Of a stretch of 45,774 bases of DNA, positions 5,464 through 39,549 are shown in pieces (position 1 is the first letter of the stretch; every line of letters starts with the position of its first letter). A program made the position numbers and the translations under genes. The notes below the pieces were generated by a model. The model ran no database searches, had not been told where the DNA came from, and worked only from the letters and a program-made list of their open reading frames with translations. The stretch is from a virus, in IMG/VR virus record IMGVR_UViG_3300020141_001298, positions 1-45,774 of that record. One strand, 5' to 3'.

Positions 5464-5645
5464 GCCGCGACATTATTCGCGTGGCGATGGATGCCTACTG
5501 GGATCATCGCTTGGCTGGTAAGACGCTCCACGCGGAGGAGCGCATGGAGGCGGCACTTCGCGCTGCTGCGCTCCAGTGCTCCTTTAATGGGGGCGCCGAA
5601 CTGTTAACAAAACTACACAACCACAATGGCACGGACAGGGATTGA
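5460..5645 (+). CDS. Small hypothetical protein between deaminase and sigma factor
   Basis: This 61-residue protein starts at an ATG overlapping the deaminase stop (ATGA at 5460-5463) and its 3' end overlaps the sigma factor start by 20 bases. The sequence (start MSRDIIRVAMDAYWDHRLAG) is polar and helical and matches no family I know. Because its ribosomes end beyond the sigma factor ATG, its translation may control sigma factor expression by coupling. Confidence 0.7.
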   Translation: MSRDIIRVAMDAYWDHRLAGKTLHAEERMEAALRAAALQCSFNGGAELLTKLHNHNGTDRD

Positions 5646-6507
5646 TACTTACTTGAACAGCATTGGCACGGTGCCTTTGCTGACTCCGGAGCAGGAGATT
5701 GACCTGGGGCGGAAGGTGCAGCGGATGATTGCGCTCCAAGGAGAGGGGATTGAGTTGACGCCCCAGCAGCTCAAAGAGGTGCGCGTGGGGGAGCGGGCGT
5801 TGCAGCGGTTTGTGCAGTCGAATTTGAGGTTGGTGGTGTCAGCGTCGAAAAAGTATGTCGGGGTGCTGGAGCACATGGATTTGATGGACTTGGTGCAGGA
5901 GGGGAATATCGGGTTGATGACGGCGGTGCGAAAGTTTGATCCGAGTAGGGGCTACAAGTTTTCGACCTATGCCTATTGGTGGATTCGGCAGGCAATGATT
6001 CGAGGAATTGCGGCAAAGGAAAGGTCGATCCGGTTGCCTGGGAAGGTATCGGACATGGCGAGCAACTGGAATAAGAAGGTGAGGGAGCTGAGTCAGGAGT
6101 TGAGGCGGATGCCCACTACTGAGGAGATGGCTACGGCTTTTGATTTGCCGGTGGAGGAAGTCAGGATGTATTTGGACCGGGGTAAGTATGTGACTTCCTT
6201 GGATGCTCTGATGATGGCCGGGGAAGGGAGTGCGATCGTGGAAATGATTAGCGATCCACGAGATCCCGATGGGACGGTGGCGATGGAGCATACAGAAATG
6301 CAGGAAACGCTGGTTGCGCTGGAGTCGGCCTTAGGTGTGCTGACACCTAAAGAGCGGGATTTTGTGCAGCGCAGGTGGGGGCTCCACGGCAGACCTGAAG
6401 AGACTTTTGTTGAGCTGGGGAAAACTATTGGGGTAAGTAGGGAACGGGCAAGACAAGTGGTGGATCAGGCGCAGCGAAAAATGAAGCGCTACCTGTTACT
6501 GGCTTAG
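5626..6507 (+). CDS. RpoD/SigA-like sigma-70 factor
   Basis: This 293-residue protein has a full sigma-70 layout. Region 1.2 begins DTYLNSIGTVPLLTPEQE. Region 2 contains NLRLVVSASKKY, DLMDLVQEGNIGLM, FDPSRGYKFSTYAYWWIRQA and RSIRLPGKV, nearly identical to the consensus of bacterial primary and group 2 sigma factors. Region 3 spans roughly residues 150-200, and region 4 ends in the helix-turn-helix TFVELGKTIGVSRERARQVV. Region 1.1 is absent, as in group 2 factors. It would direct host RNA polymerase to -10/-35-type promoters. It is the last gene of the + block and converges with the glycosyltransferase, overlapping by 12 bases. Capture from a bacterial host is the likely origin. Confidence 0.95.
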   Translation: MARTGIDTYLNSIGTVPLLTPEQEIDLGRKVQRMIALQGEGIELTPQQLKEVRVGERALQRFVQSNLRLVVSASKKYVGVLEHMDLMDLVQEGNIGLMTAVRKFDPSRGYKFSTYAYWWIRQAMIRGIAAKERSIRLPGKVSDMASNWNKKVRELSQELRRMPTTEEMATAFDLPVEEVRMYLDRGKYVTSLDALMMAGEGSAIVEMISDPRDPDGTVAMEHTEMQETLVALESALGVLTPKERDFVQRRWGLHGRPEETFVELGKTIGVSRERARQVVDQAQRKMKRYLLLA

Positions 6508-9640: not shown

Positions 9641-9921
9641 CGCTTGAGGTTGCGGATAGCTGCCTTAACAGGATCGTAGAGACCCAGGATGGTGCTGACC
9701 TGCGTGGCAGTAGCAGTACGGCCAAGCTTTTCTTCGATGACATCAGTAATCACTGCCTGTACCTCAAGCGGCTTGGCGTGATCTACCAACAACATAGAAG
9801 GCAACTCCACATCAAGCTTGGCGAAGATCGCTGGCAACTCCCGGCGGAGTGCGCGATCCACCGCAAGCTTGAGCAGCGCACGGCTGATCTCAAGGGCGAT
9901 GGTGCGGAAGATGCTGGTCAT
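9637..9921 (-). CDS. Hypothetical helical protein next to endolysin
   Basis: This 94-residue protein starts MTSIFRTIALEISRALLKLA and is predicted to be all helical, with an amphipathic N-terminal helix that could lie on a membrane. Its stop overlaps the endolysin ATG and its start overlaps the stop of the next gene upstream, so the three are probably made together. I recognise no family. A lysis accessory or regulatory role is suggested only by position. Confidence 0.7.
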   Translation of the reverse strand: MTSIFRTIALEISRALLKLAVDRALRRELPAIFAKLDVELPSMLLVDHAKPLEVQAVITDVIEEKLGRTATATQVSTILGLYDPVKAAIRNLKR

Positions 9922-10523
9922 TTCAGAAGCTCCACACGGAGGCGTTGGATGGGTACGTCAGGTAACGCCCCACCTTTAACATCACTGTATCTGTACTTGC
10001 GGCCTTGCAGATCAATGATGTCCTCAGGGCCAAAGTTCTTGATCGTTACCTGCTGAAGGTGATTAAGTGGATGGCATTGGATGCCATGCTTTTCGGAGCA
10101 CTTGGCTACGTCGATTTTATTTGTAAAAGTAAAAACATCAGGTGCGTTGTCTTTACCGAAGTCAACTGATCCGGTAGCGCGTTTGCTGATGATGACGCCT
10201 TGTGAGCCAAATGTCAGCGTGTCAGGTCCAGTGGAACCAATGAATCGCCAGGAGGTGAAGATGCCGCGATCAAGGTGGAAGCCAAGGATCTTAGCTTTTG
10301 TTTGGCCTATAGCTTGCATCTCGTCCCGCTTGCGTTGCGGGGTAGTGCGCATCTCTAGTCCCATGAGATGACTGCTTGGTGCATTGGCTTGGATCTTGAC
10401 GATGCTTCCGTTCCTGTTGGTATCAAGCGCGAACGTTGAATACCCACGTTGCGTGGTATCCAGTGCGTTCCAGTTGAGTGCAACGGTGAGGATGGGCAAG
10501 ATAGCGGCGGCTGGTGCTGGCAT
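9918..10523 (-). CDS. Hypothetical protein with RTX-like end
   Basis: The 201-residue protein begins with a hydrophobic MPAPAAAILPILTVALNW stretch that could be a weak signal or membrane segment. Its C-terminal half contains NFGPEDIIDLQGRKYRYSDV, which resembles the end of calcium-binding RTX/hemolysin-type repeats (xxFxxxxDxIDL). The middle is beta-rich. I infer a virion or secreted surface protein, but no family is certain. It lies between the membrane protein gene and the endolysin group. Confidence 0.65.
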   Translation of the reverse strand: MPAPAAAILPILTVALNWNALDTTQRGYSTFALDTNRNGSIVKIQANAPSSHLMGLEMRTTPQRKRDEMQAIGQTKAKILGFHLDRGIFTSWRFIGSTGPDTLTFGSQGVIISKRATGSVDFGKDNAPDVFTFTNKIDVAKCSEKHGIQCHPLNHLQQVTIKNFGPEDIIDLQGRKYRYSDVKGGALPDVPIQRLRVELLK

Positions 10524-10528
10524 GATCG

Positions 10529-10735
10529 TTAGGGTTTAGTTGGAACAAGGAGACCACCGATCCAGCCGGCGGCTGCACCAACCGCTGCACTGATTGCGCT
10601 GGATTGCGCGTCACAGGCAGATGGTGTGCGAACGCGGCAAGCTGCTAGGTCAATGCTACTGATGATGATGCCTGTTGCTAGTAAGCCCACTAGGCAGCGG
10701 AGGAGATAGCTGCGTTCGTTGGGTGAGGTCGTCAT
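10529..10735 (-). CDS. Small two-helix membrane protein, candidate holin
   Basis: The 68-residue protein has two hydrophobic segments, LLRCLVGLLATGIIISSIDLA near residues 11-31 and ISAAVGAAAGWIGGLLV near 48-64, with a polar loop containing two Cys. Size, topology and the position two genes upstream of the endolysin fit a class II-like holin, but holins share little sequence and this is not proven. I choose ATG 10735 over the GTG two codons upstream. Confidence 0.6.
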   Translation of the reverse strand: MTTSPNERSYLLRCLVGLLATGIIISSIDLAACRVRTPSACDAQSSAISAAVGAAAGWIGGLLVPTKP

Positions 10736-10770
10736 CTGCACCTGTTGCTGCCGTCCGAAGTGGTGGCAGG

Positions 10771-11160
10771 TTACCTAAGTTGCCCTGCAGGCTGTGACAG
10801 TAGAAGGGTGGTGCTGATGCCGGGGGTTTCAGGGATGCGGATTTGAGGGATGGCTGGGTCGAAGGGGCGCATGTTGCGCTGGTTCGCTCCAAGGAGCCAG
10901 ATGTCGGCGATTTGGAGGTAGGGGGTCATGTCGAGGGTGTCGAGTAGGAAAGTCTTGGCGGTGGCGGGGTGGGTGCGGACGGCGAGGAGGCGGGTTTGCT
11001 CACTTTCGCTGGGGCGCTCGTGGCCTTTCTGCACGCGGACCCAGTAGTCGTTCATGACACCGACGATCAGGTAGTCGCAGTAGTCGTGGCAGCGTTCCAG
11101 GAGATTGAAGTGGCCGGCGTGGAAGAGGTCGAAGACGCCGACGGTGAAGCCGATTTTCAT
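10771..11160 (-). CDS. TagD-like cytidylyltransferase
   Basis: The 129-residue enzyme has the HxGH nucleotidyltransferase motif in GVFDLFHAGHFNLLERC (H14, H17) and ends with PETPGISTT (S116-T118), matching the RTxGISTT signature of glycerol-3-phosphate and related cytidylyltransferases. Length equals that of bacterial TagD-type enzymes. It would make a CDP-activated phospho-alcohol (glycerol, ethanolamine, choline or similar) from CTP. The gene overlaps the LicD-like gene just upstream by four bases, which strongly suggests that LicD uses the CDP-compound made here. Confidence 0.9.
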   Translation of the reverse strand: MKIGFTVGVFDLFHAGHFNLLERCHDYCDYLIVGVMNDYWVRVQKGHERPSESEQTRLLAVRTHPATAKTFLLDTLDMTPYLQIADIWLLGANQRNMRPFDPAIPQIRIPETPGISTTLLLSQPAGQLR

Positions 11161-11687
11161 TGGACCTTGGTGCTGTTGAGGGGGCTAGTGGCGAAGTGCC
11201 ATCGGCGTTTGGGGGTGCGCCAGTCGGGGCCGTATTTGGTTTCGAGGAAGTGTTCGGGTGGGTCTGGAGCGGGCATCGAACCAGTGGTGGTGTCGATGGT
11301 GGTGAGCTTGAAGGGGGCGTAGGTGAAGCGGTATTCGACGGTGTTGCGGAGGTAGGCGGAGTGCCAATAGTTGCCGGCGTCGTCTGTGTAGTAGAAGAAG
11401 ATGTCGGTCTTGACGCCGTTGCGGGTCCAGCGTTGTTGCCAGCCGGATTGTTGGGTGCCTAGAACGGAGTGGGATGTGAAGCCGGCGTTTTCGAGCCAGT
11501 TCCAGCATGCGGGTTTCCAGGTGGGGGTCCACAGGCCGATGTCGGTGTCGTGGTCCCAGCGCATGACGTGACCGTCGCGTACCAGGCCGAGCAGAGTGCC
11601 GTCCTGCACCCAAGACATGCAGCCGCCGCTGTTGAGCAGTGCGAGCATGTCGTAGGTGTTGCGGAGGGCGATTTCGTTATTGATCAC
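11157..11687 (-). CDS. LicD/fukutin-like phosphotransferase
   Basis: This 176-residue protein carries the LicD core: DGTLLGLVRDGHVMRWDHDTD, in which D45, D47 and D49 are the conserved acidic residues, followed by the KTDIFFYY strand and a C-terminal FLETKYGPDWRTPK segment as in LicD and fukutin-related proteins. LicD enzymes transfer phosphocholine or another phospho-polyol from a CDP donor to a sugar. It overlaps the cytidylyltransferase gene downstream and the glycosyltransferase gene upstream (11 bases), so donor synthesis, transfer and sugar addition are encoded together. The exact alcohol is unknown. Confidence 0.88.
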   Translation of the reverse strand: MINNEIALRNTYDMLALLNSGGCMSWVQDGTLLGLVRDGHVMRWDHDTDIGLWTPTWKPACWNWLENAGFTSHSVLGTQQSGWQQRWTRNGVKTDIFFYYTDDAGNYWHSAYLRNTVEYRFTYAPFKLTTIDTTTGSMPAPDPPEHFLETKYGPDWRTPKRRWHFATSPLNSTKVQ

Positions 11688-12420
11688 GTTCCAGCCAGTG
11701 CCCGTATTCCTTGGCTAACAGGGTAGCTGTGGGTTGATTGGCTTGTTCGTATTGCTTGCAGCGGTTACGGTTGTGCATGAGTTGGGTGCGGTTGGCTTTG
11801 CTGCGATCGCCGGGGTGCCAGAGGTGGGTGCGGGCGCCGTCGAGTTCCAGGACGTTGCCAAGCTGGTGATGGATGTTGAGGAGGAAGGCTTTGTCTTCGG
11901 GGCCCCAGCCCTCAAAGAGTTCGTCCATGCCGTTGATGTGGGCGAAGACTTCGCGGCGGATTACAACGTAGGACTTGCTGCCGCTTTCCTTGGGGCGGTA
12001 CAGGAAGGTGGTGTTGCCGTTGAGGAGGTGTTCGCGGCCGGCGTGGCTGGTATGGAGGGTGGTTAGGTGGGGGGTGATGGCGGAGTAGGAGTTGGCGGCG
12101 GCGAGGGCTTCGACTAGGTGGGGGACGCTGGGGATGAGGTCGTTGTCCGCAAGGATGTAAATGTCGCGCTCTGGACCGGTGCGGTATGCGGCGCGGGCGG
12201 CGGTATTGATTGCGCGGGCGCGGGAGAAAAAGCCGCTGGTGGCTTGGTCCGTGCCAAGGAAGACGGAAAGGTTGCGGGCGGCGTACCAGTGTTTGGTGGT
12301 GCGCTCGTTTTCGAGGCGGAATGGACAGGTGCCGAAGCTGGGCATAAGGATGGCCACGCGGGAGGCGTAGCGTTCCAGGGCAGAGTCTTCGGGAGTGGGG
12401 CCCAGAGTGATGGGCTGCAC
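11677..12420 (-). CDS. Glycosyltransferase with galactosyltransferase-type C-terminus
   Basis: The 247-residue enzyme has a GT-A fold with the metal motif LADNDLIP (D92, D94) and the acceptor/donor motif MDELFEGWGPEDKAF (W172, E175, D176), followed by HLWH (H199, H202). This combination is characteristic of the Glyco_transf_7C group, which includes beta-1,4-galactosyltransferases and chondroitin-polymerase domains. It probably adds galactose or N-acetylgalactosamine. It overlaps the LicD gene, placing sugar and phospho-alcohol addition in one operon. The 14-mer GCTAACAGGGTAGC, also in the RHH operator, lies inside it at 11714. Confidence 0.87.
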   Translation of the reverse strand: MQPITLGPTPEDSALERYASRVAILMPSFGTCPFRLENERTTKHWYAARNLSVFLGTDQATSGFFSRARAINTAARAAYRTGPERDIYILADNDLIPSVPHLVEALAAANSYSAITPHLTTLHTSHAGREHLLNGNTTFLYRPKESGSKSYVVIRREVFAHINGMDELFEGWGPEDKAFLLNIHHQLGNVLELDGARTHLWHPGDRSKANRTQLMHNRNRCKQYEQANQPTATLLAKEYGHWLERDQ

Positions 12421-12422
12421 GG

Positions 12423-12671
12423 TTACATGCGAGGGGAGGCTTCCAATTTAGAGACCCGCTGCTCGACTGAGTTAAGGCGGCCGAAGGTTTCCTTTCGCTC
12501 TTCGCGCATGTCGAGGTGCATTACTTCTAGTTGCGTTGCTATGTGCTCAACGGCAGAAGTCAGTCGTACCACCGCATCTTGTTGGCTTTGGGCGCGACTG
12601 GATCGTCCCATTGTGCTCATCGCTGCCCAGGATAGTGATGCCCCGCATACGGCAGCCAAAATTTCGATCAT
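12423..12671 (-). CDS. Membrane-anchored coiled-coil protein
   Basis: This 82-residue protein starts with a hydrophobic helix (IEILAAVCGASLSWAAMS) and continues with heptad-like repeats from about residue 30 (VVRLTSAVEHIATQLEVMHL, then FGRLNSVEQRVSKLE). A single N-terminal membrane segment followed by a coiled coil resembles small lysis-associated or host-envelope proteins such as spanin components or XhlA-like proteins, although XhlA has the opposite order. It sits between two glycosyltransferase genes. No family assignment is claimed. Confidence 0.65.
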   Translation of the reverse strand: MIEILAAVCGASLSWAAMSTMGRSSRAQSQQDAVVRLTSAVEHIATQLEVMHLDMREERKETFGRLNSVEQRVSKLEASPRM

Positions 12672-12693
12672 TTGGCCGAGCGGGTATCTCTAC

Positions 12694-13776
12694 CTAGTTT
12701 TCCCGCAGGGTGTACCAGCCGGAGCCGTGAAGATCGGCGAGGGTTTGGAAAATGCGGTCGTATTTGGCGCCACAGGTGGCGAGGGAGTAGCGGTTGCGGG
12801 TGATGTGGGCGATGGAGTGGCGGTTGAGGTCACCGGCGAGGTGGATGGAGTCGATCCAGTCCTGGAGGGTGTGGCAGCGGTAGCCGGTGATGCCCTCCAG
12901 GATGGTTTCGGTGAAGGCGCCGTAGTTGACTGCGATGAGGGGCGTGCCACAGAGCATGGCTTCGACGCCGGCACCGGCAAAGGGTTCGGTGAACACGCTG
13001 GGCATTAGGCAGGCGCGGGCGTTGCGGAGGAAATCGCTGCGCTCTTTGCCGTGGATCGGGCCGCGGTACTTGATGTTGGGGTGTTTCCAGGGGGCTGGGT
13101 CGCCTTGGCCGTGGAGGACGATGGGCCAAGGACTGTGATCTGCGATGGCGCGGATTGTGTCCATGCCTTTGATGCTGCAGATGCGTCCCAGGAATGCGAG
13201 GTAGGTGCCTGGTTGGTAGTTGGGCTGCCAGTCGCCGAGGTCGAAGTAGTTGGGGACGACCCACTCGTAGTTGACGCCGTTGCGGTTTTCGCGGCCTTGG
13301 TGGTGGTGCATCCAGGCGTAGGACTCGAAGATGCGGAAGCTGTTCGGCATCAACGTGGGGTAGCCGATGCCGGTCTCGACGTGCTGGTGGTGCGGGAACT
13401 CCACCATCAGCTGCTGGTGCGCGTGGCCGAACGGGTGGCAGATGATGTCGTGGGGTTCCAGCCGTTCGCGGAGCGCCGGGATCAGTCTGCGCTCGAAGAG
13501 CGTGTGGCCTTCGCTGCCGACGCAGGCGTCGTCGCCGTAAAAAGCGGTGCTGGAGCGGGAGCTGTAAAGGCGCTCGAATTCCGCGTCGCTCAGCATTTCG
13601 ACGTGCTGGGTCGCTCCAGCGGTAGAGCCGCTGTTGCTGTACTCAATGACTTCGTAGCCTTGGCCCTGCATCATTTTTGGGAAGCGCAGGGCCTTGCCGG
13701 TAAAAGCGCAGTGGCTGTATTCAGCCGTGGCGCGGGTGTGAAAGATTCCGACGAGGTGTAGGCGCACCAGGGACAA
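12694..13776 (-). CDS. Glycosyltransferase family 4 (group 1)
   Basis: The 360-residue protein shows the C-terminal Rossmann domain of GT4 enzymes: YLAFLGRICSIKGMDTIRAI, then IVLHGQGDP, and PSVFTEPFAGAGVEAMLCG with the conserved EPFxxxxxEA nucleotide-sugar motif. The N-terminal half is divergent and would bind the acceptor. It probably acts in the cytoplasm on the same glycan as its neighbours. The start is uncertain: the frame opens at TTG 13776, and GTG 13767 is an alternative; neither has a strong ribosome site. It is the first gene of the glycan/lysis block. Confidence 0.88.
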   Translation of the reverse strand: MSLVRLHLVGIFHTRATAEYSHCAFTGKALRFPKMMQGQGYEVIEYSNSGSTAGATQHVEMLSDAEFERLYSSRSSTAFYGDDACVGSEGHTLFERRLIPALRERLEPHDIICHPFGHAHQQLMVEFPHHQHVETGIGYPTLMPNSFRIFESYAWMHHHQGRENRNGVNYEWVVPNYFDLGDWQPNYQPGTYLAFLGRICSIKGMDTIRAIADHSPWPIVLHGQGDPAPWKHPNIKYRGPIHGKERSDFLRNARACLMPSVFTEPFAGAGVEAMLCGTPLIAVNYGAFTETILEGITGYRCHTLQDWIDSIHLAGDLNRHSIAHITRNRYSLATCGAKYDRIFQTLADLHGSGWYTLREN

Positions 13777-13818: not shown

Positions 13819-14277
13819 TTAGGGCGCTTCAGGCCAGGTGACATCCCATGGGAAGCCTTCCTGTGCGGTTACATCACGCAGCTCTTGGCGGTATGTAGCC
13901 CAGACTTCGTGGTCAGCGGGGGAGTCGGGAAGCTGGGTCCAGTCGCAGGCGCTAAGTAGCGCATTGCGCTGTTGACGCACCTCTGCGGATTTGCGTTCGT
14001 TTTCAGCGTCCTTCTCCTCTTGATCCATCTCAACCACTTCCCACGTTTGACGCCAGATGCCAACTTCTGAACGTACGGGAGCGACCTCTACAGCTTTTTC
14101 GTATCGTCCCAGTTCGGGATGGTTAGCAAAGTCATAGATGCCGTAACCCAGTGGTTCTGTTGTCTCGGCGGTGAAAAACCGGGGGAAAGATGTATTGGGG
14201 TAGAGCTGCCGCAAGTTGAGCTCAGCGATGGGGTGGCCGACGGGCTGGCCGTCCTCCAACTGAATAAAGAAAGTCAT
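13819..14277 (-). CDS. Tail fibre assembly protein (Phage_tail_APC-like)
   Basis: The C-terminal third of this 152-residue protein reads RNALLSACDWTQLPDSP followed by WATYRQELRDVTAQEGFPW and WPEAP, the signature of the phage tail assembly chaperone family found next to fibre genes. The N-terminal part, with LYPNTSFPRFF and PLGYGIYDF, resembles segments of fibre-linked chaperones too. It should help fold or attach the fibre proteins encoded directly upstream. Its ATG overlaps the stop of the polyglycine gene, indicating coupling. Confidence 0.85.
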   Translation of the reverse strand: MTFFIQLEDGQPVGHPIAELNLRQLYPNTSFPRFFTAETTEPLGYGIYDFANHPELGRYEKAVEVAPVRSEVGIWRQTWEVVEMDQEEKDAENERKSAEVRQQRNALLSACDWTQLPDSPADHEVWATYRQELRDVTAQEGFPWDVTWPEAP

Positions 14278-15071
14278 CAGAGGTTACCTGTGTTAGTAGA
14301 TGGGAATTGTCGGGTAGTCCCCGGCCAGATGATACGAACGGCGCCTATGGCACCTGGGCCGCCGCCAGCTGAAAGACCACCACCACCACCACCACCACCA
14401 AATGCCCCGCCGCCGCTACCGCCGCCAGCGCTGCCGCCCCAGCCGCCGCTGCTACCGCCGCCACCGCCGCCACCGCCGCCACCGCCGACACCGCTGCTGC
14501 CAGCCCCATAAATCCCAACACCACCACCGCCGCCTGTAGCTCGATCGGGGTAGGAAGTCCCACCACCACCACCACCACCACCACCACCGCCGCTGCCCGA
14601 CCCCCCAGTACCACCCGGCGTGGAACGCTCCCCCTGGCCGTATCCGCCACCACCACCATTGCCGGTATAGCCACCAGCTCCACCGCCACCACCACCACCA
14701 CGCTCTCCTATTACGCCGCCGGGGCCGCCATTCCCGCCGCCAGTGCCAGATCCACCTCCTCCTGTTTGTCCTGAGCCTCCGGTAGCAGTGACTGCGCTTG
14801 CAAAACTGCTACTCCCAGAAGTGCCGCCTACGCTGACGGCATAACTTGACCCAGGCGTAACCGTAATGTTATTTGTGTATCTCAAGCCGCCACCGCCGCC
14901 ACCCACGCCACTTGGGCCGCCGCCGGTGCTGCCGCCACCCACGCAAACAACAGACACCGACGTAACGCCTGGCGGGGCTACCCAGGTAAAAGATCCCTGA
15001 TTGGTGAACTCTTGCTGCCCCGGTGCCGCCGCAGCCGCAGCCACTGCCCTTAGCCCGTGTGGGTGCCTCAT
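14277..15071 (-). CDS. Polyglycine-rich tail or fibre-tip protein
   Basis: This 264-residue protein has a short folded N-terminus (FTWVAPPGVTSVSVVCVGGG), then about 190 residues dominated by runs of Gly broken by Ser, Tyr and Trp, and finally AIGAVRIIWPG, an ending common in Gly-rich phage tail proteins. Such sequences can pack as polyglycine-II helices, as in the receptor-binding tips of T4-like gp38 adhesins. It lies between the chaperone gene and two fibre genes, so a receptor-binding or fibre-tip role is likely. Its repeated codons make length variation by slippage likely. Confidence 0.78.
   Translation of the reverse strand: MRHPHGLRAVAAAAAAPGQQEFTNQGSFTWVAPPGVTSVSVVCVGGGSTGGGPSGVGGGGGGLRYTNNITVTPGSSYAVSVGGTSGSSSFASAVTATGGSGQTGGGGSGTGGGNGGPGGVIGERGGGGGGGAGGYTGNGGGGGYGQGERSTPGGTGGSGSGGGGGGGGGGGTSYPDRATGGGGGVGIYGAGSSGVGGGGGGGGGGGSSGGWGGSAGGGSGGGAFGGGGGGGGLSAGGGPGAIGAVRIIWPGTTRQFPSTNTGNL
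14377..14720. repeat. CCA/CCG trinucleotide-repeat tract
   Basis: The + strand carries repeated runs of CCACCACCACCACCACCA and CCGCCACCGCCGCCACCGCC, encoding the Gly runs of the - strand protein. Runs of five to nine identical triplets occur near 14382-14402, 14455-14480, 14563-14590 and 14681-14700. These are prone to replication slippage and to assembly error. Confidence 0.8.
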
Positions 15072-15661
15072 GCCACATCTCCTACAGATGCGCCATACAC
15101 CTGGGTGCTGACTTTCCAGAATTGAATCACGCTATAGCCAGTTGTTGCAAGCGTTGGTGCGCTGCCTCCTCTCCAGATAACGCCGCTAGCGCCCCAAGTG
15201 GCATCACTCCACGTCAACGTATAAGCGCTGCCGTCATCCACCATCAGGGTCACGGCTTCACCAGCCGCGAAGTTAGTAGCCTTCGGTGTGCGCGAGGCAC
15301 CAAGCGTGATCAGTTGGATGCTGCCATTACCGGGGTCCACCTCAAACGCAGCGCCATCGGTGATGGTGAACACGTCCTCAAGGATCGTGCCGATGATTGC
15401 TGGATCGGTGAGGGTCTTGGCAGTCAGGGTCTGCGTAGCAGAGGTGCCTACCAGATCACCACTGGGAACCGTCACGGTGGCAGCCGTACCAGATCCAGTG
15501 CGGTTGACAAGCCCGGTGGTAGAAAGTGCCGCAACAGCGGCTAGGTCAGTGTCATAGCCCTGCACCGTGACGCCAATGGCGGCAGCTTCTAGCAGGTCAT
15601 CAACATCCACCACCTGAGTGCTGGATTCGATCTGATCAACTTTTACTTTTCCAAAGGCCAT
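15068..15661 (-). CDS. Tail fibre-like structural protein
   Basis: The 197-residue protein begins [20 protein letters not shown] and continues with LAAVAALSTTGLVNRTG and ATQTLTAKTLTDPAI, sequence types often seen in the fibre and neck proteins of aquatic phages. The C-terminal half looks beta-rich and ends in a Trp-containing sheet (YTLTWSDATWGASGVIW). It overlaps both neighbouring fibre genes by a few bases. A fibre or fibre-connector role is inferred; receptor binding is not shown. Confidence 0.78.
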   Translation of the reverse strand: MAFGKVKVDQIESSTQVVDVDDLLEAAAIGVTVQGYDTDLAAVAALSTTGLVNRTGSGTAATVTVPSGDLVGTSATQTLTAKTLTDPAIIGTILEDVFTITDGAAFEVDPGNGSIQLITLGASRTPKATNFAAGEAVTLMVDDGSAYTLTWSDATWGASGVIWRGGSAPTLATTGYSVIQFWKVSTQVYGASVGDVA

Positions 15662-17601
15662 TAGATGATCACCCAGACGGCGCCAGCCGGGACAGTAACA
15701 GTGTAGGTTGCCCCCACTGCAACTGGCCCAGCGGATACTGCGTTAAACCCGGCTGTGATCGTGTAGTTTTCGGAGATGACCTGTTCGGTTTCGGCAGCAG
15801 GGAACTGACTTCCTACACCTGTCGCCCCTTGAGGACCGGTCGCACCAGTGGTGCCAAGAGGTCCAGTAGGACCCGCGATACCAGTGGCTCCCGCAGGACC
15901 GGTAGGTCCTGAGCTACCGGCAACACCGCTAGCACCAGTCGGACCAGCGGGGCCGGTGGCGCCGGTGGCGCCTTGGATGCCACTTGTGATGGCAAGGAAA
16001 ACACTGTGGTTATCGGCAAAATTAGTGGTGCCCGTCCCAGCCGAAGAGATCAGTGTGACCGGGTAAATCCAGTAGCTATTGGCGGTGCCGGGGTTGGTGT
16101 TAGTTGAGGTGGCGGTGACCTCCCATATCTGGTAGTTGGCGCTAGCAGTAAGATCTTGGATTGTGAAACGCTCACCAACCTTGATTTGCGCCAGAAAAAT
16201 GTCAATGTCGGTGTTTTCAACCGTGCGGTGGTTGACATTGATACTGGTAGCGCTGATCTGTGTGGCGTTGTTCCACAAAAGCTTTCCATCACCAGGGTTG
16301 CCACTGGTGATGCTGGTCTCTGTTTTGTAGTTAAAAATGCTGGAGGAAACACCCTGCGGGCCTGTTGCTCCTGTGGAACCTATAGATCCTGTGGCACCTG
16401 CAAGACCGCTGGCACCTGTGGCACCGGTAACACCCACGACACCACTGGCACCTGTGGCACCGGTGGCGCCTTTGTAGGCATACAGTTCCCATTCGGTGGG
16501 ATCGTTAGCCGGGTCTGTGTAGACGTTTACGGTTGTTTGAGTGCTGATATAGGTGTTGTTGTCGACGGTGCTGACAGCAACCGTGTCTTTGACGTATGAG
16601 CTTTCAACCCACAGCCCTATAAAAGTAAGTAGTGTCCCTGTCGGACCAGTGGGGCCGGTTGCACCTGTGGAACCTATGGTTCCGGTGGCGCCCGTGGGGC
16701 CGGCGATGCCGGTGGCACCGATTGCACCGGTGGCGCCTACTGCGCCGGAAGGACCTTGGGGCCCCTGGATAGAACCACCACTGACCCAGCCTGCGGTCTC
16801 GTCGTAGACCCAGAAGCTGTCGTCCGCTTGGACGATGTACGAGTCGCCTTGGTCTGCCGCACCAGGCAGATTGCCAGTGGTTGCGACTTGGCCTTTGAAG
16901 GTGATGCCTAGGCCCGCTTCCCCTTGAATACCTTGAACGCCTTGGGGACCACTGGCACCTGTGGGGCCTGCAATACCGGTGGCACCGACGGGGCCTGTAG
17001 TACCGACGGGGCCGGTGGCACCGCTTTGGCCGATGATGCCGGAAGCACCAGTGGCACCACGTGGGCCGGTTGCGCCGGTAATTCCAGTCGGGCCAACTAC
17101 ACCCGTAGAGCCTTGGGGCCCTGTGGCACCTGTTATGCCTTGCGCACCAGTGGAGCCTTGAAGACCTTGGATGCCGGTGGGGCCTTGCAGACCGCTGGCG
17201 CCGGTTGGACCTGTGGTGCCTTGGATGCCGGTTGCACCAGTGGGGCCCTGAATACCTGTGGAGCCTTGGGGACCCGTTGTTCCTTGGAGACCGCTGGGGC
17301 CAGTGGCACCTGTTGTGCCTTGGGGTCCGGTCGTACCAGTGGAACCTTGAGGGCCGGTGATACCGGTGGCGCCCGTAGTTCCAGCGGAGCCAGTCGCACC
17401 AGTGGTGCCGGTGGCACCTACAAGCCCGGTAGCGCCAGTTGTACCGGCGGGACCTACTGGGCCGGTGGCTCCGGTTTTGCCGGGGGTGTTGACTTCGATG
17501 ACGGAGGCGCTGGGGACCAGCAGCTCCACGGTGTTGACAGCGACCTCGGTGACTTGGACCTGGGACTGCTGGTTTTCGACGTTGATGAGGATGTCAGCCA
17601 T
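15661..17601 (-). CDS. Collagen-like tail fibre protein
   Basis: The 646-residue protein has a short N-terminal attachment segment (residues 1-40), then at least four collagen-like blocks of Gly-X-Y triplets, mostly GATGPTG and GPQG. The longest covers about residues 41-225. Two small globular modules interrupt the triplets: one around [19 protein letters not shown] with WVYDETAGW, the other [19 protein letters not shown] to WELYAYKG, whose layout recalls CBM5/12-type carbohydrate-binding modules. Thr-rich triplets form a trimeric rod and are plausible glycan acceptors for the nearby glycosyltransferases. The motif CGTNCCAG is nearly absent from this repeat. Confidence 0.88.
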
Positions 17602-17952: not shown

Positions 17953-18363
17953 TTACGCTCCAGGGCAATCGGAGGTTGGGGCGGGGTTGGTCTGGATGTC
18001 CAGCTGGAGCTGGTGCATCGGACCAGCTCCCTCTGGTACGGACAGTGTCCGTACACCGGTGCCGGGGTAAACCTCGATCACCTTGGCGGCTAGGGCTTCT
18101 AGGTCGGTGTTGTTGTCCCAGTCCACTAGGTAGGTGGTCCAGGTGCGGAGGGCGGCTTGGTTGGTGTACTGGCGGATGGGGTTGAGGCCTGGGTCGCGCA
18201 CCAAGACGAGTTCGACGCCCGAGACGGTGGTGCCTGGGGTCATGCGTTCGCCGAGGGCGCGGACAGAGACGGCGCTGGTTTCGCTGCCATTAGGCAAGGT
18301 GTACACACCGAGACTGTCAACCAGCAGCGTTTCGAGTTCGGTGCGCAGCTGGAGGATGTCCAT
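17953..18363 (-). CDS. Putative tail structural or completion protein
   Basis: This 136-residue protein starts MDILQLRTELETLLVDSLG and contains beta-strands around VSGVELVLVRDPG and WTTYLVDWDNN. It resembles in size and layout the tail-completion or tail-terminator type proteins, but I do not see a decisive motif. It lies four bases after the frameshift-fusion gene and four bases before the attachment protein. A virion role is inferred from position. Confidence 0.65.
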   Translation of the reverse strand: MDILQLRTELETLLVDSLGVYTLPNGSETSAVSVRALGERMTPGTTVSGVELVLVRDPGLNPIRQYTNQAALRTWTTYLVDWDNNTDLEALAAKVIEVYPGTGVRTLSVPEGAGPMHQLQLDIQTNPAPTSDCPGA

Positions 18364-18367
18364 ACAT

Positions 18368-19536
18368 CTAGTTTTCCGAGACCAGCAGCAGGCCTACTTC
18401 GAGGTAGCCCGCTAGTGGGCGCTGCGGGAACCGGAGGGTGTATGTCATCAAGGGGCGGTCTAGGTCGCGGACCCGGACTGGGGCGTCGAGGTAGCGTCCC
18501 ACGGCCACGAGACCCGCTCGAATGTTGGGGCCTTCCCAAGTGGGGGCGAGAATCCAGATCTCGTTGTCGTCGCTGTGGAAAGCGCGGATGTCTGGGGGCG
18601 TACCAGCTTCGGAGGCGCTGGCGAGGATTTGGGGCCAGGCGGCTAGGAGGATGAGAGGGGCTTTACCTTCGTGACGCAGGGCGAGGGCGACAGTTGCAAC
18701 TTCAGGTGGGACTGTCGCCTCGTCGCGTTCCTTGGATTGGAACATGGCGAAGTCGGTGGCGCTGAAGGCCTTGCTTTTCTTGGGGTCGCGGTTGATGTTG
18801 GCCAGCAGCGCCATGTGCTGGGCTTGGGGGAGTTCGGAAAGGGCGGCGTTTTCGCGGCGGATGCGCTGCAGTTGGCGCCAGGCGCGGAGCACCGTGGCGC
18901 GGAGAGTTAGGGCGAAGTCGTGCCGGTGGAACTGCGAGGGGAAACCGGCGGCTAGGTCGTAGAAGATCTCTTCCCAGTTCGTTTCGGTTCGCTCGTAGCT
19001 TCCGGCTGCGGCTTTTTTAGTTCGTCTTCCGTGATCGGCTGGGAGGGCAGGTCTTCGGCGTCCTGCTCTTCGCGTACCAGGGCAAGCAGATCGTTGAAGA
19101 GGGATTCGTGGAGGGTGCGGGTGTCGTCCAGGCTCCAGGTGGGGAGGTTGAGGCGGCAGCGGATGAGGGCGGTGACGGTGGCCTCGATGTTGCGGCGGCC
19201 GGCGTTGGTGTAGACGCGGGCAACCTGCTCGATACGCTCGGCGTGCTTGGTGCGAATCTCGTCGGCCTTGGGTTCCAGTTCGCGGCCGCCGACGGCGCAC
19301 TCGATGATGTGGAACGCCTCGGTAAGGGTGATGCCTTCTTCTTTGGCGATGGCGTCGGCCATCCGCGCACCAGCGACAAAGCTGCTTTGCTCCATGGCGA
19401 GTAGCTCGGAGGTGACACCGGCCTCGCCGACAGTGATGCCGCCTAGTACCGGGATCTCCAGCACACCGGCAGTGTCGTTGCCCACGCGGCGCAGCTCAAC
19501 CTGGCGCGGCGCAACGACGAAAGGCAGCTTGGTCAC
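18368..19536 (-). CDS. Frameshift-fusion tail assembly protein (G-T-like)
   Basis: Two overlapping frames are joined by a predicted -1 ribosomal frameshift at A_AAA_AAG (19012-19018). The fusion would have 175 residues from the upstream frame and 214 from the downstream frame, 389 in all. The downstream part starts AAAGSYERTETNWEEIFYDL and has no plausible start codon of its own near the junction, which argues for frameshifting. Tail assembly chaperones of long-tailed phages, such as lambda G and GT, are made this way. The unusual point is location: these chaperones normally lie just before the tape measure gene, whereas here the pair lies after it. The part of the downstream frame above 19012 is a shadow. 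Confidence 0.75.
18952..19536 (-). CDS. Unshifted product: putative tail assembly chaperone (G-like)
   Basis: Without frameshifting, GTG 19536 gives a 194-residue protein starting MTKLPFVVAPRQVELRRVGN and ending with a Lys/Arg/Thr-rich tail after TEDELKK. The middle is helical (SFVAGARMADAIAKEEGITL), consistent with a chaperone-like fold. The GTG overlaps the stop of a 42-residue gene upstream (GTGA), so translation is probably coupled. It would be the major product, with the longer fusion as a minor one. Confidence 0.8.
   Translation of the reverse strand: MTKLPFVVAPRQVELRRVGNDTAGVLEIPVLGGITVGEAGVTSELLAMEQSSFVAGARMADAIAKEEGITLTEAFHIIECAVGGRELEPKADEIRTKHAERIEQVARVYTNAGRRNIEATVTALIRCRLNLPTWSLDDTRTLHESLFNDLLALVREEQDAEDLPSQPITEDELKKPQPEATSEPKRTGKRSSTT
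19012..19018 (-). other. Slippery heptamer for -1 frameshifting
   Basis: On the - strand the zero frame reads CTA AAA AAG, so the classic slippery heptamer A_AAA_AAG is present in the correct phase, followed by GCCGCAGCC. A slip back by one base enters the long downstream frame that continues to 18368. A stable downstream stem is not obvious, but A_AAA_AAG is efficient on bacterial ribosomes without a strong stem. Confidence 0.8.
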
Positions 19537-29388: not shown

Positions 29389-29453
29389 TGCTGTGCGGTG
29401 CCCTTATACCCGAGGTTGCCGGCGGAAACCTTGGGTAAAGGGGTGTAGGCAAA

Positions 29454-29846
29454 ATGGCATCGGCTCTGTCCTCGGTGATGAACGCCACGGTTACGTTCCA
29501 GGTGGCGAAGACGGGGACCTATACGGATCCGGCTACGGGGAACGTGTTGCCGGCTACGAGGGATGTGACGGTGAAGCTGTTTTTGAAGGCCCAGTCGATG
29601 GGGGTGCGGCTGTTTCCGGGGGTGGATGTGACGGACACCGTGTACGAGGGCTACGCGGTCGATCCAGTGGCTTTTGATGCGGGGGTGGTGATTGGCACCA
29701 CGGGCACACTGACGTTTGCTGCTGAGGCTCCTGCGGCCTGTGAGGTGCTAGAGCTGCGTATGAATTATGGGTCAAGTGGGCTTATTGGGTCCATTCTGGC
29801 CAGCACGCTGGGACAGAAGGTGCGGTTGGTGGTGAGAAAGTTCTGA
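29454..29846 (+). CDS. Head-tail or tail-terminator-type protein, inverted
   Basis: The 130-residue protein (start MASALSSVMNATVTFQVAKT) is beta-rich and shares one base with the next gene. The + strand is unexpected because all flanking virion genes are on the - strand. By position between tape measure and tail tube, it may be a head-closure or tail-terminator protein. A CGTTCCAG word lies at 29494. No decisive family motif is seen. Confidence 0.7.
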   Translation: MASALSSVMNATVTFQVAKTGTYTDPATGNVLPATRDVTVKLFLKAQSMGVRLFPGVDVTDTVYEGYAVDPVAFDAGVVIGTTGTLTFAAEAPAACEVLELRMNYGSSGLIGSILASTLGQKVRLVVRKF

Positions 29847-30286
29847 TGACACGCATCCGTGCCACGGTTACGTGGGATCTGGCGAAGTTAGAGAAGCGGG
29901 TGGATCAGATACTGGAGAATTTTGGGCCGTTGATTTCGTTCCAGCTGCAGGAGGAGATTAGTAAGGATCAGTTTGTGTACACGAATGATGAGGGGGATGA
30001 GGTGGTGACGAGGCGGGAGAACCGGCAGGTGGTGGGGAGTCCGCGGGACATTGTGGATACGGGCCAGCTGTTGAATTCGCAGAGCACTCCGGAGGTGGGC
30101 GGCGGGATGCTGACGATTCGGTGGACAGCGCCGTATTCGCTGGCGGTGTTGAGGGGTGGTTATACGGTCCAGTCGCAGAGGGGGAATTACACGGCGAAGG
30201 AAAGGGATTGGATTACGCCGGCGTTGAGGGAGCAGCCTTTTAAGCCGTATGTGTTGAGGCAGTGGCGGCAGTTGTCGGGCCAGTAA
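29846..30286 (+). CDS. HK97 gp10-like head-tail joining protein, inverted
   Basis: The 146-residue protein has a helical N-terminus (WDLAKLEKRVDQILENFG) and then VGSPRDIVDTGQLLNSQ, LTIRWTAPYSLAVLRGGY and ERDWITPALRE, the pattern of the HK97 gp10-like/tail-component family that completes the head-tail joint. It ends at a TAA overlapped by a terminator serving the opposite strand. The gene pair 29454-30286 has its own ribosome sites and must have a + strand promoter. Confidence 0.8.
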   Translation: MTRIRATVTWDLAKLEKRVDQILENFGPLISFQLQEEISKDQFVYTNDEGDEVVTRRENRQVVGSPRDIVDTGQLLNSQSTPEVGGGMLTIRWTAPYSLAVLRGGYTVQSQRGNYTAKERDWITPALREQPFKPYVLRQWRQLSGQ

Positions 30287-30347: not shown

Positions 30348-30833
30348 TCAGCTGCCGGGGGCTTGGGCGTTCCAGTCGTAGGCGCCGTAGCCGATGAGGT
30401 CGAAGCTGACTTTAGCGATGTTGCCGGCGACGATGTCCTCGGAGAAGGAGCCGACTTGGGCGAGGCCGGCGTGGTACTCGGGGTCGTCGCCGGAGCCGTC
30501 AGTGACGGGGGTTTCGCGGTACCAAGTGACGAGGGTGCCGGAGGTGGCTTCGAGGGCGGCCTGTTTGAGGGTTTGGTAGCCGGCGTCGGTGACGTCCAGG
30601 TTCATCGAGCAGGGGATGGTGTACGACTGGCCCGTGATCAGGTTGGCCTGGAAGCCGAATTCGGAGTCGTAGTCAAGGACAGCGGTGCTGTCGCTGGTGG
30701 CCTGGATGCCAGCGTTGTCCAGAGACAGGACGCGGGTCATCCCGGCGTCGCTGGTTGGGATTGTGCTGGAGGATGTTCCCAGCTCCACGTACAGCTTGTA
30801 GTTAAAAGCTGCGAAAAAAGCACCAGTTGCCAT
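30348..30833 (-). CDS. Major tail tube protein
   Basis: This 161-residue protein begins MATGAFFAAFNYKLYVELGT and is beta-rich, with FGFQANLITGQSYTIPCSMN and a C-terminal strand KVSFDLIGYGAYDW. Size and composition match TP901-1-like tail tube proteins, which stack as hexamers around the tape measure. A terminator follows it at 30284-30306. The gene is preceded by a sigma-like gene, which is unusual. Confidence 0.78.
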   Translation of the reverse strand: MATGAFFAAFNYKLYVELGTSSSTIPTSDAGMTRVLSLDNAGIQATSDSTAVLDYDSEFGFQANLITGQSYTIPCSMNLDVTDAGYQTLKQAALEATSGTLVTWYRETPVTDGSGDDPEYHAGLAQVGSFSEDIVAGNIAKVSFDLIGYGAYDWNAQAPGS

Positions 30834-30847
30834 GACAAGGAGGAGAC

Positions 30848-31411
30848 CTATAGACCTAGGTTGCCGGGGGTGGCATTTTCCTCGGCTTCGAGGACGTCCC
30901 AGGGGGTGGGGCGGGGGCAGACGTGGAGTTCGAAGCCGCGGATTTCGTGGTCTGTGGGGCTGGTAGCTACGAGTGCTTCTTTGAGTTTGGTGTCGGTGAT
31001 GTTGAGTTCGGTCATGATGCTGGCCATGGTGTCGCCGCGCTTAATCATGTAGCGGGCGCGTTGGCCGATGCTGCGGATCGTTCCAGGGGCTTTGATGAGC
31101 CAGTTGTGGTCGCGGATGAAGTGGCGGATTTCGCCTTCGCAGAAGACGGTGAGGAGGGTGGAGAAGGTGCCTTTGGCAGGGTCCCAGGCGCGGCAGGTTT
31201 TGATGAAGGCGATGTCGATACAACTGAAGAGGTCTTCGTTGGCGACGTAGCGGTATTTGCGGCACATTTTGCGGCCCATCAGTTTGATAAGGCCTTGGTG
31301 CTGGCGGTACAAATTTCCCACGCGCTTTTGTTCGTCGCGTGTAAGCGGGGTGGCTAAGTAGCCGGTTTTTGGTCGTGCGGCTGTTGCCATGTACCACAGG
31401 ATAGGGCACAT
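30848..31411 (-). CDS. Divergent sigma-70-like factor in the virion block
   Basis: The 187-residue product contains a recognisable sigma region 2: LYRQHQGLIKLMGRKMCRKY, then DLFSCIDIAFIKTCRAWDP, FSTLLTVFCEGEIRHFIRDH and APGTIR, matching the DLxQxGxxGLxxAxxxFDxxxGxxFSTYAxxxIRxxIxxxIR layout of SigB/SigF-type factors. A short region 3/4-like part follows (MASIMTELNITDTKLKEAL). The usual aromatic residues of the -10 melting region are reduced. Start is uncertain: ATG 31411 or ATG 31390. It lies between tail tube and head-tail connector genes, so it may act as a late sigma factor or anti-host factor. Confidence 0.8.
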   Translation of the reverse strand: MCPILWYMATAARPKTGYLATPLTRDEQKRVGNLYRQHQGLIKLMGRKMCRKYRYVANEDLFSCIDIAFIKTCRAWDPAKGTFSTLLTVFCEGEIRHFIRDHNWLIKAPGTIRSIGQRARYMIKRGDTMASIMTELNITDTKLKEALVATSPTDHEIRGFELHVCPRPTPWDVLEAEENATPGNLGL

Positions 31412-31430: not shown

Positions 31431-32003
31431 TTAGCTGCGTACCACGCCGACGAGGAGGCCGGAACCGCCGGTGCCGAAGGTGCTGAGGGTGCCGTAGAGG
31501 ACGGTGCTCAGGCTGGGGGCGCGGGTGACGAGGGCGCTGTAGTTGCTGGTGCGGTTGGAGGGGAGGCCTTCGGTGCGCCACTCGATTTCGAGGACGTCGA
31601 GCTTGGCGCGTTTGAGGTCGGAGTTGGGGATGCCGGGGATGAGGTTGCCGGCGGTGGCGGCGTCCGCGCCAGCCTCGGCTTCGTAGAGGAGGGCGAGGGC
31701 GAGGTCGAAGGTGGCTTGTTTGACTTCGCGGGGGATTTCGTCGTCGGGGATTTCGCGGCCGTTGATGTTGGCGTCGGTGCGGGGCCAAGCCAGGGCTTGG
31801 GTTGTGGTGGTGCGGGTGCCGACCCAGGGCAGATTGTTGAGTTGGGAGGTGGAGCTGACGAGGGCGCGAATTTTGTCGTCGCCGGTTGCCATGATCCAGC
31901 CTTCGTTGTTGAAGTCGTAGCCGGCGATGTCGTCACCTTCAGCGACTGTCAGGAAGCTGTTGGAGTTGACGCCGCCTACGGTGGCGTCGATTGTGATTGT
32001 CAT
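31431..32003 (-). CDS. Head-tail connector (DnaT-like family)
   Basis: The 190-residue protein has NSFLTVAEGDD near its N-terminus, then DDKIRALVSSTSQLNNLPWVG and TQALAWPRTDANINGREIP, the signature of the phage DnaT-like/head-tail connector family. This protein forms the ring below the portal. Its position between capsid and tail genes is the expected one. The name DnaT comes from an older annotation and does not imply ssDNA binding here. Confidence 0.85.
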   Translation of the reverse strand: MTITIDATVGGVNSNSFLTVAEGDDIAGYDFNNEGWIMATGDDKIRALVSSTSQLNNLPWVGTRTTTTQALAWPRTDANINGREIPDDEIPREVKQATFDLALALLYEAEAGADAATAGNLIPGIPNSDLKRAKLDVLEIEWRTEGLPSNRTSNYSALVTRAPSLSTVLYGTLSTFGTGGSGLLVGVVRS

Positions 32004-32050
32004 GGGTGTTTGTCTCGTAGCCTAGATTCCCGCGTGGTCCGCAGGCAAAG

Positions 32051-33144: not shown

Positions 33145-33171
33145 GGGAGGGGGTAGCGGGGTTGCCGGTGG

Positions 33172-33897: not shown

Positions 33898-33922
33898 GAA
33901 ATCGGGGGTAACTTGTACCCTC

Positions 33923-34072
33923 CTAGATTACCACTTTAGAAGTGGATGTGAACTGTTCAATATGTTGCTCTAGTTTCTGCTGCAAAAGTTGCAGCGCTGG
34001 GTTCGGGGTCGGGCTTTCTGCGTTTCGTTGCTTTATGCGCTCCAGCAGGAGGTTCGCCCGTGAGGGGTGCAT
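33923..34072 (-). CDS. 49-residue helical protein
   Basis: In the 261-base gap between MuF-like and scaffold genes, a frame from ATG 34072 to TAG 33923-33925 encodes a helical protein (start MHPSRANLLLERIKQRNAES, then PALQLLQQKLEQHIEQ). The heptad-like Leu/Gln pattern is protein-like, and the alternative frame in the same stretch is Pro/Arg-rich. It may be a small capsid accessory protein. No family is recognised. Confidence 0.55.
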   Translation of the reverse strand: MHPSRANLLLERIKQRNAESPTPNPALQLLQQKLEQHIEQFTSTSKVVI

Positions 34073-36506: not shown

Positions 36507-36536
36507 GGGCGCTTCGCTTTACTCTGTTACCCTAGT

Positions 36537-36809
36537 TTACCATTTGGTTCGGTTTGCCCAGAAAGCGGCACTCATTTTGCCTTTGGCGATATTTTTGGCG
36601 TGTCGCGCCTTAAATGATGCCCTTCTGGCTGTGTTTGACGCTGATTCTCCTTTTTGTGGTGGTGAGCCAGATACGCCCTGCTGACCGAAACGGATGAGTT
36701 TGATGGTTTCACCTTCTTTGGCGAGCACAGCGTGTGACTTATTCGGATGCTTAGGCGTCCGCTTTGGCTTGTTGTAGCCGCTGAATTGCTCGCCGCGGTA
36801 GGTAATCAC
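36537..36809 (-). CDS. Lys/Arg-rich conserved phage protein
   Basis: From GTG 36809 the product is 90 residues (start MITYRGEQFSGYNKPKRTPK) and contains KSHAVLAKEGETIKLIRFGQ, GSPPQKGES and FKARHAKNIAKGKMSAAFWA. This basic pattern occurs in many aquatic phages as a small protein of unknown function near structural or packaging genes. GTG overlaps the stop of the next small gene upstream (GTGA). The longer frame upstream of the GTG is Pro/Arg-rich shadow. DNA binding is likely from its charge. Confidence 0.8.
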   Translation of the reverse strand: MITYRGEQFSGYNKPKRTPKHPNKSHAVLAKEGETIKLIRFGQQGVSGSPPQKGESASNTARRASFKARHAKNIAKGKMSAAFWANRTKW

Positions 36810-36970: not shown

Positions 36971-37021
36971 GGGGCGTTCCAGGGCAGAGGGGAGGTGGCC
37001 TAGGTTCCCCTGTCGAGTGGA

Positions 37022-39015: not shown

Positions 39016-39375
39016 CTAAGCGGATCGCCCCAGGATCCCTGCCAACTCCATAAGCAGCCGGGTAGCTCCTATGGCGTTGCTCCCCTGTCGGGTATCGAGA
39101 CTCATCTCCTGCACCTTGAGGAGTGTCTGCATTGCCTGCGCTGCAAATTCTTTCCGATCAATTCCCTCCATTTCGGTGACCATCAACCGCCGGGCCGTCT
39201 GCATCCGCAGCTCAGCAGTCCGAGGTGCAAGCCCCCAACGCTCCGCGCAAATCGCACGGATCTGGTAAGGACGTTTCCCGTGGCTTATGGCGTCCTTCAC
39301 AACTTCGACCTGTTCCATTATCTCAGGAGCAGAGAAGCCGACCTTCTTGGGTTTGGGTGTCGGCTGTTCGCTCAT
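39016..39375 (-). CDS. Putative terminase small subunit
   Basis: The 119-residue protein starts MSEQPTPKPKKVGFSAPEIM and contains a helix-turn-helix-like segment (YQIRAICAERWGLAPRTAEL RM), then a helical oligomerisation region (FAAQAMQTLLKVQEMSLDTR). DNA-binding N-terminus, helical core and location near TerL fit a small terminase subunit, which recognises the packaging site. The 72-residue gene between it and TerL is unusual. The + strand frames overlapping it are shadows. Confidence 0.7.
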   Translation of the reverse strand: MSEQPTPKPKKVGFSAPEIMEQVEVVKDAISHGKRPYQIRAICAERWGLAPRTAELRMQTARRLMVTEMEGIDRKEFAAQAMQTLLKVQEMSLDTRQGSNAIGATRLLMELAGILGRSA

Positions 39376-39549
39376 TGGCTCGGGTATTGGCTGCGGTCGT
39401 TCCCCTAGTATTCCACCTCACCTCACTGTTACGAATTATTAATATTCCCTCCCCCCTGCCGCCCCAGTTGGCAGCGCCTCGCAATCTCGTCTACAGTGAC
39501 AGGTGAGAAGCAACGAGCCCGCCCCGTGGCCTGCCTCTCCCCTGATCCG
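39376..39549. promoter_or_regulatory. Divergent intergenic region
   Basis: This gap separates the - strand small terminase gene from the + strand small-gene operon. It includes an AT-rich core, TTACGAATTATTAATATTCC (39429-39448), in an otherwise GC-rich region. TATTAAT-like -10 boxes can be read on both strands. It is likely the divergent promoter region. A + strand frame opens from GTG 39496 into the next gene, but ATG 39550 is the more likely start. Confidence 0.45.

Follow-up and report, generated by a model that had tools for sequence, protein, structure and literature searches.

Region 4 of the sigma-70 proteins, which provides -35 recognition and flap binding, is found in the majority of the family but is lacking from some proteins, gp55 of phage T4 among them. 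The partners of gp55 are gp33 and gp45, the sliding clamp; gp55 itself is, like the protein described here, a short region 2 protein that lacks region 4 (PMC2988020, PMC7892883). The late promoters of T4 contain a -10-like element with no conservation at -35 (PMC2988020), and gp55 without its clamp motif still supports basal transcription (PMC7892883). The bacterial consensus for clamp binding is QL(S/D)LF (PMC9690074). Our limited survey of the literature returned nothing relevant on sigma factors lacking region 4 or on clamp-coupled late transcription in siphoviruses.

We analyzed, entirely in silico, an IMG/VR virus record of 45,774 bp (the window, meaning this whole stretch of DNA), in which a gene of the virion block encodes a sigma-like protein here termed SIG2. 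Judged from its sequence and that of its relatives, SIG2 is most likely a late sigma factor that reads promoters consisting of a -10 element only.

Gene context and start of SIG2

The SIG2 open reading frame lies on the minus strand at 30848-31411 and has 187 codons. A sequence-only reading of the window had placed a protein of this size, with a sigma region 2, between the tail tube and head-tail connector genes, and profile matches of the two neighbors bear out this placement (Table 1). The same reading counted two sigma-like proteins in the phage; the other one is the full-length protein SIG1, encoded at a distance from SIG2. That SIG2 lies on the minus strand and has no region 4, that the candidate promoters are of the -10-only kind and that the sister branch has a clamp motif, all described below, are points beyond that reading. 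The host is likely to be cyanobacterial, based on the relatives of the terminase.

The two neck-like genes, whose identity is assigned from position only, are inverted within an otherwise minus-strand late block and are served by a predicted divergent late promoter. The inversion (29454-30286) is retained in most relatives; in the branch that includes L072, the second neck-like gene is found upstream of Ad1 in the late orientation instead. Upstream of the major capsid gene (33145-33171, minus strand) is an inverted repeat, GCGGG...CCCGC, in which a GGTAAACC-like stretch is embedded; the repeat is present in most relatives inspected and could be a leader hairpin or RNA element. Elsewhere on the minus strand, sugar or nucleotide-sugar type genes, including glycosyltransferases and a cytidylyltransferase-like protein, surround the lysin gene (6496-13776) and sit behind late promoter-like sites, and the tail region at 14277-17601 encodes a glycine-rich protein followed by a long collagen-like protein with GXX repeats.

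Table 1. Genes and candidate promoter sites of the window.
Feature	Position	Strand	Remarks
SIG2, sigma protein with regions 2 and 3, no region 4	30848..31390	-	180 aa from Met8
SIG1, RpoD-like sigma with regions 1.2, 2, 3 and 4	5626..6507	+	
Head-tail adaptor Ad1, upstream neighbor of SIG2	31431..32003	-	phrog_477, E=1.1e-27
Tail tube, downstream neighbor of SIG2	30348..30833	-	phrog_38654/1407 (tail protein/major tail protein)
Two neck-like genes (29454-29846 and 29846-30286)	29454..30286	+	identity from position only
Candidate SIG2 promoter TATCCT (TAnnnT)	31398..31403	-	7 nt before ATG
Candidate late promoter GGCAACCTAGG, tail tube gene	30855..30865	-	overlaps SIG2 3' end; predicted +1 is A at 30851
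Candidate late promoter GGCAACCTCGG, tape-measure gene	29410..29420	-	back-to-back with GGAAACCTTGG
Candidate late promoter GGAAACCTTGG, inverted neck-like gene pair	29424..29434	+	
Candidate late promoter GGGAATCTAGG, Ad1	32021..32031	-	one mismatch to consensus
Candidate late promoter GGTAATCTAGG, scaffold gene	33922..33932	-	
Candidate late promoter GGTAAACTAGG, portal gene	36531..36541	-	
Late promoter-like site GGGAACCTAGG, small gene downstream of terminase	36999..37009	-	one mismatch
Late promoter-like site GGAATACTAGG, ORF 39016-39375	39404..39414	-	one mismatch
Late promoter-like site GGAAAACTAGA, ORF 17953-18363	18367..18377	-	one mismatch
Candidate late promoter GGAAAACTAGG, ORF 12423-12671	12693..12703	-	
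Candidate late promoter GGCAACTTAGG, ORF 10529-10741	10774..10784	-	

The seven codons ahead of Met8 contain a conserved TAnnnT element, TATCCT, followed by GTGGTAC-ATG. An element of this type precedes an in-frame start by 3-9 nt (mode 6) in 53 of 61 relatives of the window's branch, compared to 3.9 expected from shuffled sequences. Based on the positions of TATCCT and this ATG, translation of SIG2 probably starts at Met8 rather than at the beginning of the listed 187-aa frame. The spacing of the TAnnnT element would put +1 at or beside the A of the ATG, as expected for an ordinary -10 promoter, so that the SIG2 mRNA is probably leaderless or nearly so. No late motif (see below) is found directly upstream of SIG2.

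SIG2 is a sigma region 2 and 3 protein that lacks region 4

Profile searches assign SIG2 to the sigma factors. It matches PHROG 351, 'RNA polymerase sigma factor' (E=2.3e-15), as do all 28 of the 28 aligned relatives, and the NCBIfam SigB/F/G family TIGR02980 (E=9e-9). The match to Pfam Sigma70_r2 (E=1.4e-4) scores 22 bits, slightly below the curated cut-off of 24, and a profile of the SIG2 family matches SigB of S. aureus (8x6g) with E=6.6e-6. Two AlphaFold2 models, with mean pLDDT of 79 and 80, are all-helical, and their PDB matches, among those listed, are sigma factors throughout. The N-terminal (region 2) domain of SigE aligns with the SIG2 model over 79 columns (TMt 0.78, rmsd 2.2 A). 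Among viral models, the top matches listed include many phage proteins annotated as sigma factors. The region 2 helices are well conserved, and the DNA-facing helices are among the most conserved parts of the protein.

No Pfam match to region 4 was detected in SIG2 at E<=1. In all members of the family approximately 40 residues remain after the region 3-like helix-turn-helix (HTH), and because every member ends at this point, region 4 is absent throughout the family. By sequence and fold, SIG2 thus belongs to the RNA polymerase sigma factors, with regions 2 and 3 and no region 4. A metal site is possible in SIG2, given Cys and His residues that are invariant or nearly so (C73, H97, H155, H163 and C165, with the pattern HxxxxxxxHxC close to the C-terminus).

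The slot between Ad1 and the tail tube often holds head-closure or tail-completion genes, and SIG2 could by its position be a neck or tail-completion protein whose similarity to sigma factors is incidental. The independent profile and fold matches are, however, to sigma factors, with no assignment to a structural family, and phage KBS-S-2A, which lacks SIG2, has no counterpart of the gene beside its Ad1. On the profiles and folds we reject a structural-protein identity for SIG2, and we give the neck or tail-completion reading next to no credence.

Conservation of SIG2 and distribution of the family

A scan of IMG/VR identified 80 relatives of the window, and SIG2 is kept in all 80. The gene order MCP-Ad1-SIG2-tube is found in nearly all relatives whose contig spans the locus and persists even at 30% identity of the capsid protein; the shorter order Ad1-SIG2-tube is seen in every relative whose contig includes both flanking genes. 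Median identity to the window is 67% for SIG2, 48% for the capsid protein, 47% for Ad1 and 71% for the tube, SIG2 being better conserved than the capsid protein. Values of dN/dS for SIG2 in divergent pairs are between 0.02 and 0.23, indicating purifying selection. Low dN/dS together with conserved synteny indicates that the SIG2 frame is a genuine gene. Some of the compared genomes are mutually close (G013 and G014, G001 and G007).

Further scans revealed a sister branch of SIG2. When the most divergent member, L077, was used as query, the sole match was L077 itself. Matches in cultured phages are at 25-35% identity only, with no close relative among them. Bacterial genomes yielded one real relative, on a 3.3-kb contig of a Rhodoferax MAG; the contig is probably a stray phage contig, and so the match gives no host assignment. 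One SIG2 of the sister branch is found in a contig of 106.7 kb (L169, IMGVR_UViG_3300027151_000002), more than twice the usual genome length, which may reflect a larger phage, a duplication or an integrated copy.

SIG1 resembles bacterial RpoS and SigA proteins, cyanobacterial SigA among them. A full sigma factor (PF04542) was found in every near-complete relative of both branches.

A -10-only motif precedes the virion genes

The regions upstream of the virion genes visibly share one string. An EM motif finder was applied to 260 upstream regions from six relatives, the window being left out of the training. The best motif, ccGGCAACCTAGG, had a log-likelihood of 300, compared to 45 with shuffled input, and gave the consensus ccGG(C/A)AAC(C/T)TAGG. 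Start-proximal matches on the late strand cluster in position, with 53 of 80 located 30-39 bp before the start. Across seven genomes, the density is 4.5 sites per kb in late-strand upstream windows, compared to 0.056 per kb elsewhere on the same strand and 0.010 per kb elsewhere on the other strand. Four upstream sites on the opposite strand fit the inverted neck-like cassette, the nearest downstream gene of the four matches.

The motif was recovered beyond the training set. All 12 of the 12 SIG2 phages tested contain 7-14 sites each, mostly on the late strand, and the held-out phages, consisting of the window and five others (three from the sister branch), show this same range and the strand bias of the training set. 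The window has 7 high-scoring sites, fewer than its relatives; shuffled versions gave a mean of 1.6 and a maximum of 4. The motif is present in all SIG2 branches tested, L077 included.

Alignment of 75 sites demonstrated that G at -14, G at -13, A at -11 and T at -7 each have a frequency of 0.98, followed by AGG, with a preference for A or T precisely at +1. This phasing was reproduced in two further sets, one of 69 sites and one of 94 sites taken from the sister branch. No conservation at -35 was found in any of the three sets. A back-to-back pair of motifs, serving the tape-measure gene on one side and the inverted neck-like genes on the other, is found in 62 of 81 loci and in none of the shuffled loci.

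The motif was recognized in silico only and its CCTAGG portion is palindromic, features that would also suit an operator bound by an activator or repressor of the phage, or an element of the mRNA leader, with SIG2 acting elsewhere. A(-11), T(-7) and A/T(+1) are, however, spaced as in a sigma -10 element, and where two copies lie divergently, back to back, the genes they serve are on different strands; we therefore regard the operator or leader reading as very unlikely. A position between neck and tail-tube genes would likewise be compatible with packaging of SIG2 in the virion and its injection to start early transcription in the next infection. Synteny alone is no proof of packaging, however, and the motif precedes virion genes, not early genes (the early genes of the window are poorly called, which limits claims about early promoters); this scenario appears to us highly improbable.

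The proposal of a cascade is supported by two candidate promoter classes consistent with it, TAnnnT before SIG2 and GGCAACCTAGG before the virion genes; the difference between the promoter of SIG2 and the late class fits a cascade. The suggestion that SIG2 is switched on with the virion genes is probably imprecise, as SIG2 has a candidate promoter of its own, of the TAnnnT class, in addition to predicted read-through from upstream late promoters.

The late motif accompanies SIG2 rather than SIG1

By terminase, the closest cultured relatives of the SIG2 phages are KBS-S-2A, S-H1 and P-HS2. All three lack SIG2 and contain 0-1 motif sites, which is chance level. KBS-S-2A carries a SIG1 homologue (38% identity over 284 aa) but neither SIG2 nor the motif, indicating that the motif goes with SIG2. 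These comparison phages are distant (41-42% TerL identity), and the link between motif and SIG2 is a correlation, not a proof. We infer from co-occurrence, phasing and late specificity that SIG2 reads the late motif.

Another assignment of roles would have SIG1 or a host alternative sigma factor read the late motif, SIG2 serving as a modulator that binds core or as a decoy sigma that shuts off transcription of host or early genes. A region 2 protein without region 4 could indeed occupy core without initiating, and SIG1 is available in every near-complete genome. KBS-S-2A, however, has the SIG1 homologue without the motif, the motif is kept wherever a SIG2 branch was tested, and the DNA-facing helices of SIG2 belong to its best conserved parts. 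We consider this assignment unlikely. The same evidence, that the motif tracks SIG2 and not SIG1 and that the region 2 helices are conserved, does not support the earlier suggestion that SIG2 blocks the first sigma factor, and favors SIG2 directing late transcription over the suggestion that it amplifies it. Taken together, the data make it likely that SIG2 serves these phages as their late sigma factor, by the mechanism proposed in the Discussion.

A predicted clamp-binding motif in the sister branch

All 31 of the 31 sister-branch members have an N-terminal beta-clamp motif, Q-(L/P)-x-(L/F)-x, embedded in an otherwise variable N-terminal tail. The variants are QLDLF, QLSLF, QLQLF, QLALF, QLCLF, QLSFF, QLDFF, QLSFL, QLTLK and QPSLDL. 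In the window's branch the motif is missing from 60 of 61 members, the lone exception lying upstream of the start. The basal activity of gp55 without its clamp motif indicates that the window's branch could work without one.

A phage beta clamp (PF02767) was found in none of 14 records, some of which may be incomplete, which would make the clamp of the host the partner. Nor did these phages, some of them perhaps represented by incomplete records, reveal a gp33-like partner, searched for as a conserved protein bearing a clamp motif at its C-terminus. Synechococcus phage S-H1 (L236), which has no SIG2, encodes a DNA polymerase III beta clamp of its own (18187-19236), in a gene that adjoins the terminase. 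We put at roughly even chances the proposal that this region-4-less sigma docks on the host beta clamp by its N-terminal QL(S/D)LF motif, reads GGCAACCTAGG promoters and arose independently of T4, the window's branch being derived, with the tether lost or moved to another protein.

Discussion

We propose that SIG2 is initially made from the TAnnnT promoter, which would be recognized by SIG1 or by the primary sigma factor of the host. SIG2 would then bind the host core RNA polymerase through region 2 and read GG(C/A)AAC(C/T)TAGG as an extended -10 element, with GG at -14/-13, A at -11, T at -7 and A at +1, thereby starting virion-operon mRNAs with short leaders without contact at -35. Opening of the late promoters could raise SIG2 further by positive feedback, because SIG2 sits inside the late block and would be reached by read-through from the Ad1 and scaffold promoters. 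In the sister branch, the N-terminal QLxLF would tether SIG2 to the host beta clamp and, as in T4, link replication with transcription of the late genes. Phages of the window's branch may not use the clamp, or may recruit it through another protein.

If the clamp tether is true, virion genes would fire on replicating DNA. A compact, widespread phage group unrelated to T4 appears to follow the same logic, with a region-4-less sigma factor, predicted -10-only late promoters and, in one of its branches, a textbook clamp-binding motif of bacterial type. The group offers named candidate promoters with predicted start sites, SIG2 itself represents a minimal sigma factor for work on the mechanism of region-4-free initiation, and its tree provides a natural comparison of clamp motif present and absent. 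The GGCAACCTAGG motif could also be of help in recognizing late genes, and phages of this group, in metagenomic data.

Among known sigma factors, the closest sequence family is group 3 (SigB, SigF, SigG and FliA), with which SIG2 has a common GEI..F.RD..W...P core (TIGR02980, 8x6g); SIG2 differs in the lack of region 4, in predicted promoters without a -35 element and in its predicted late-phage role. The best database matches, at 25-35% identity, are cyanophage and Bacillus phage sigma-70 members (PSS2 rpoS, S-CRES1 SigF, Goe8 and Emery). Those inspected are longer than SIG2 (approximately 244 aa for S-CRES1 gp20 and 405 aa for Emery gp94) and, unlike SIG2, are found outside any position between Ad1 and the tube. 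KBS-S-2A, S-H1 and P-HS2 have a related terminase but neither SIG2 nor the late motif; in KBS-S-2A, as in the SIG2 phages, the coat protein is followed by an Ad1-like gene, and an RpoD-like sigma factor is encoded.

The comparison with T4 is one of predicted function rather than of descent. Both systems combine a short sigma protein with late promoters that are -10-like and without a -35 element, these being predicted in the case of SIG2. A terminal motif of the sliding-clamp-binding type, as in gp55, is seen for SIG2 in the sister branch only. Alignment of the family profile with gp55 by hhalign gave a probability of 0.2%, arguing against homology. Unlike gp55, SIG2 groups with SigB/F/G and has retained a linker and an HTH that resembles region 3; its clamp motif, absent from the window's branch, is N-terminal and of the bacterial QL(S/D)LF type; its predicted promoter motif is GGCAACCTAGG rather than the AT-rich TATA box of T4; no phage clamp or gp33 was found in the SIG2 phages; and its gene lies within the virion operon of a phage of approximately 45 kb with a siphovirus-like head-tail gene set. 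On the sequence evidence, SIG2 resembles gp55 in its predicted working yet falls outside the gp55 family, and the analogy suggests that these small phages evolved a late-gene control like that of phage T4.
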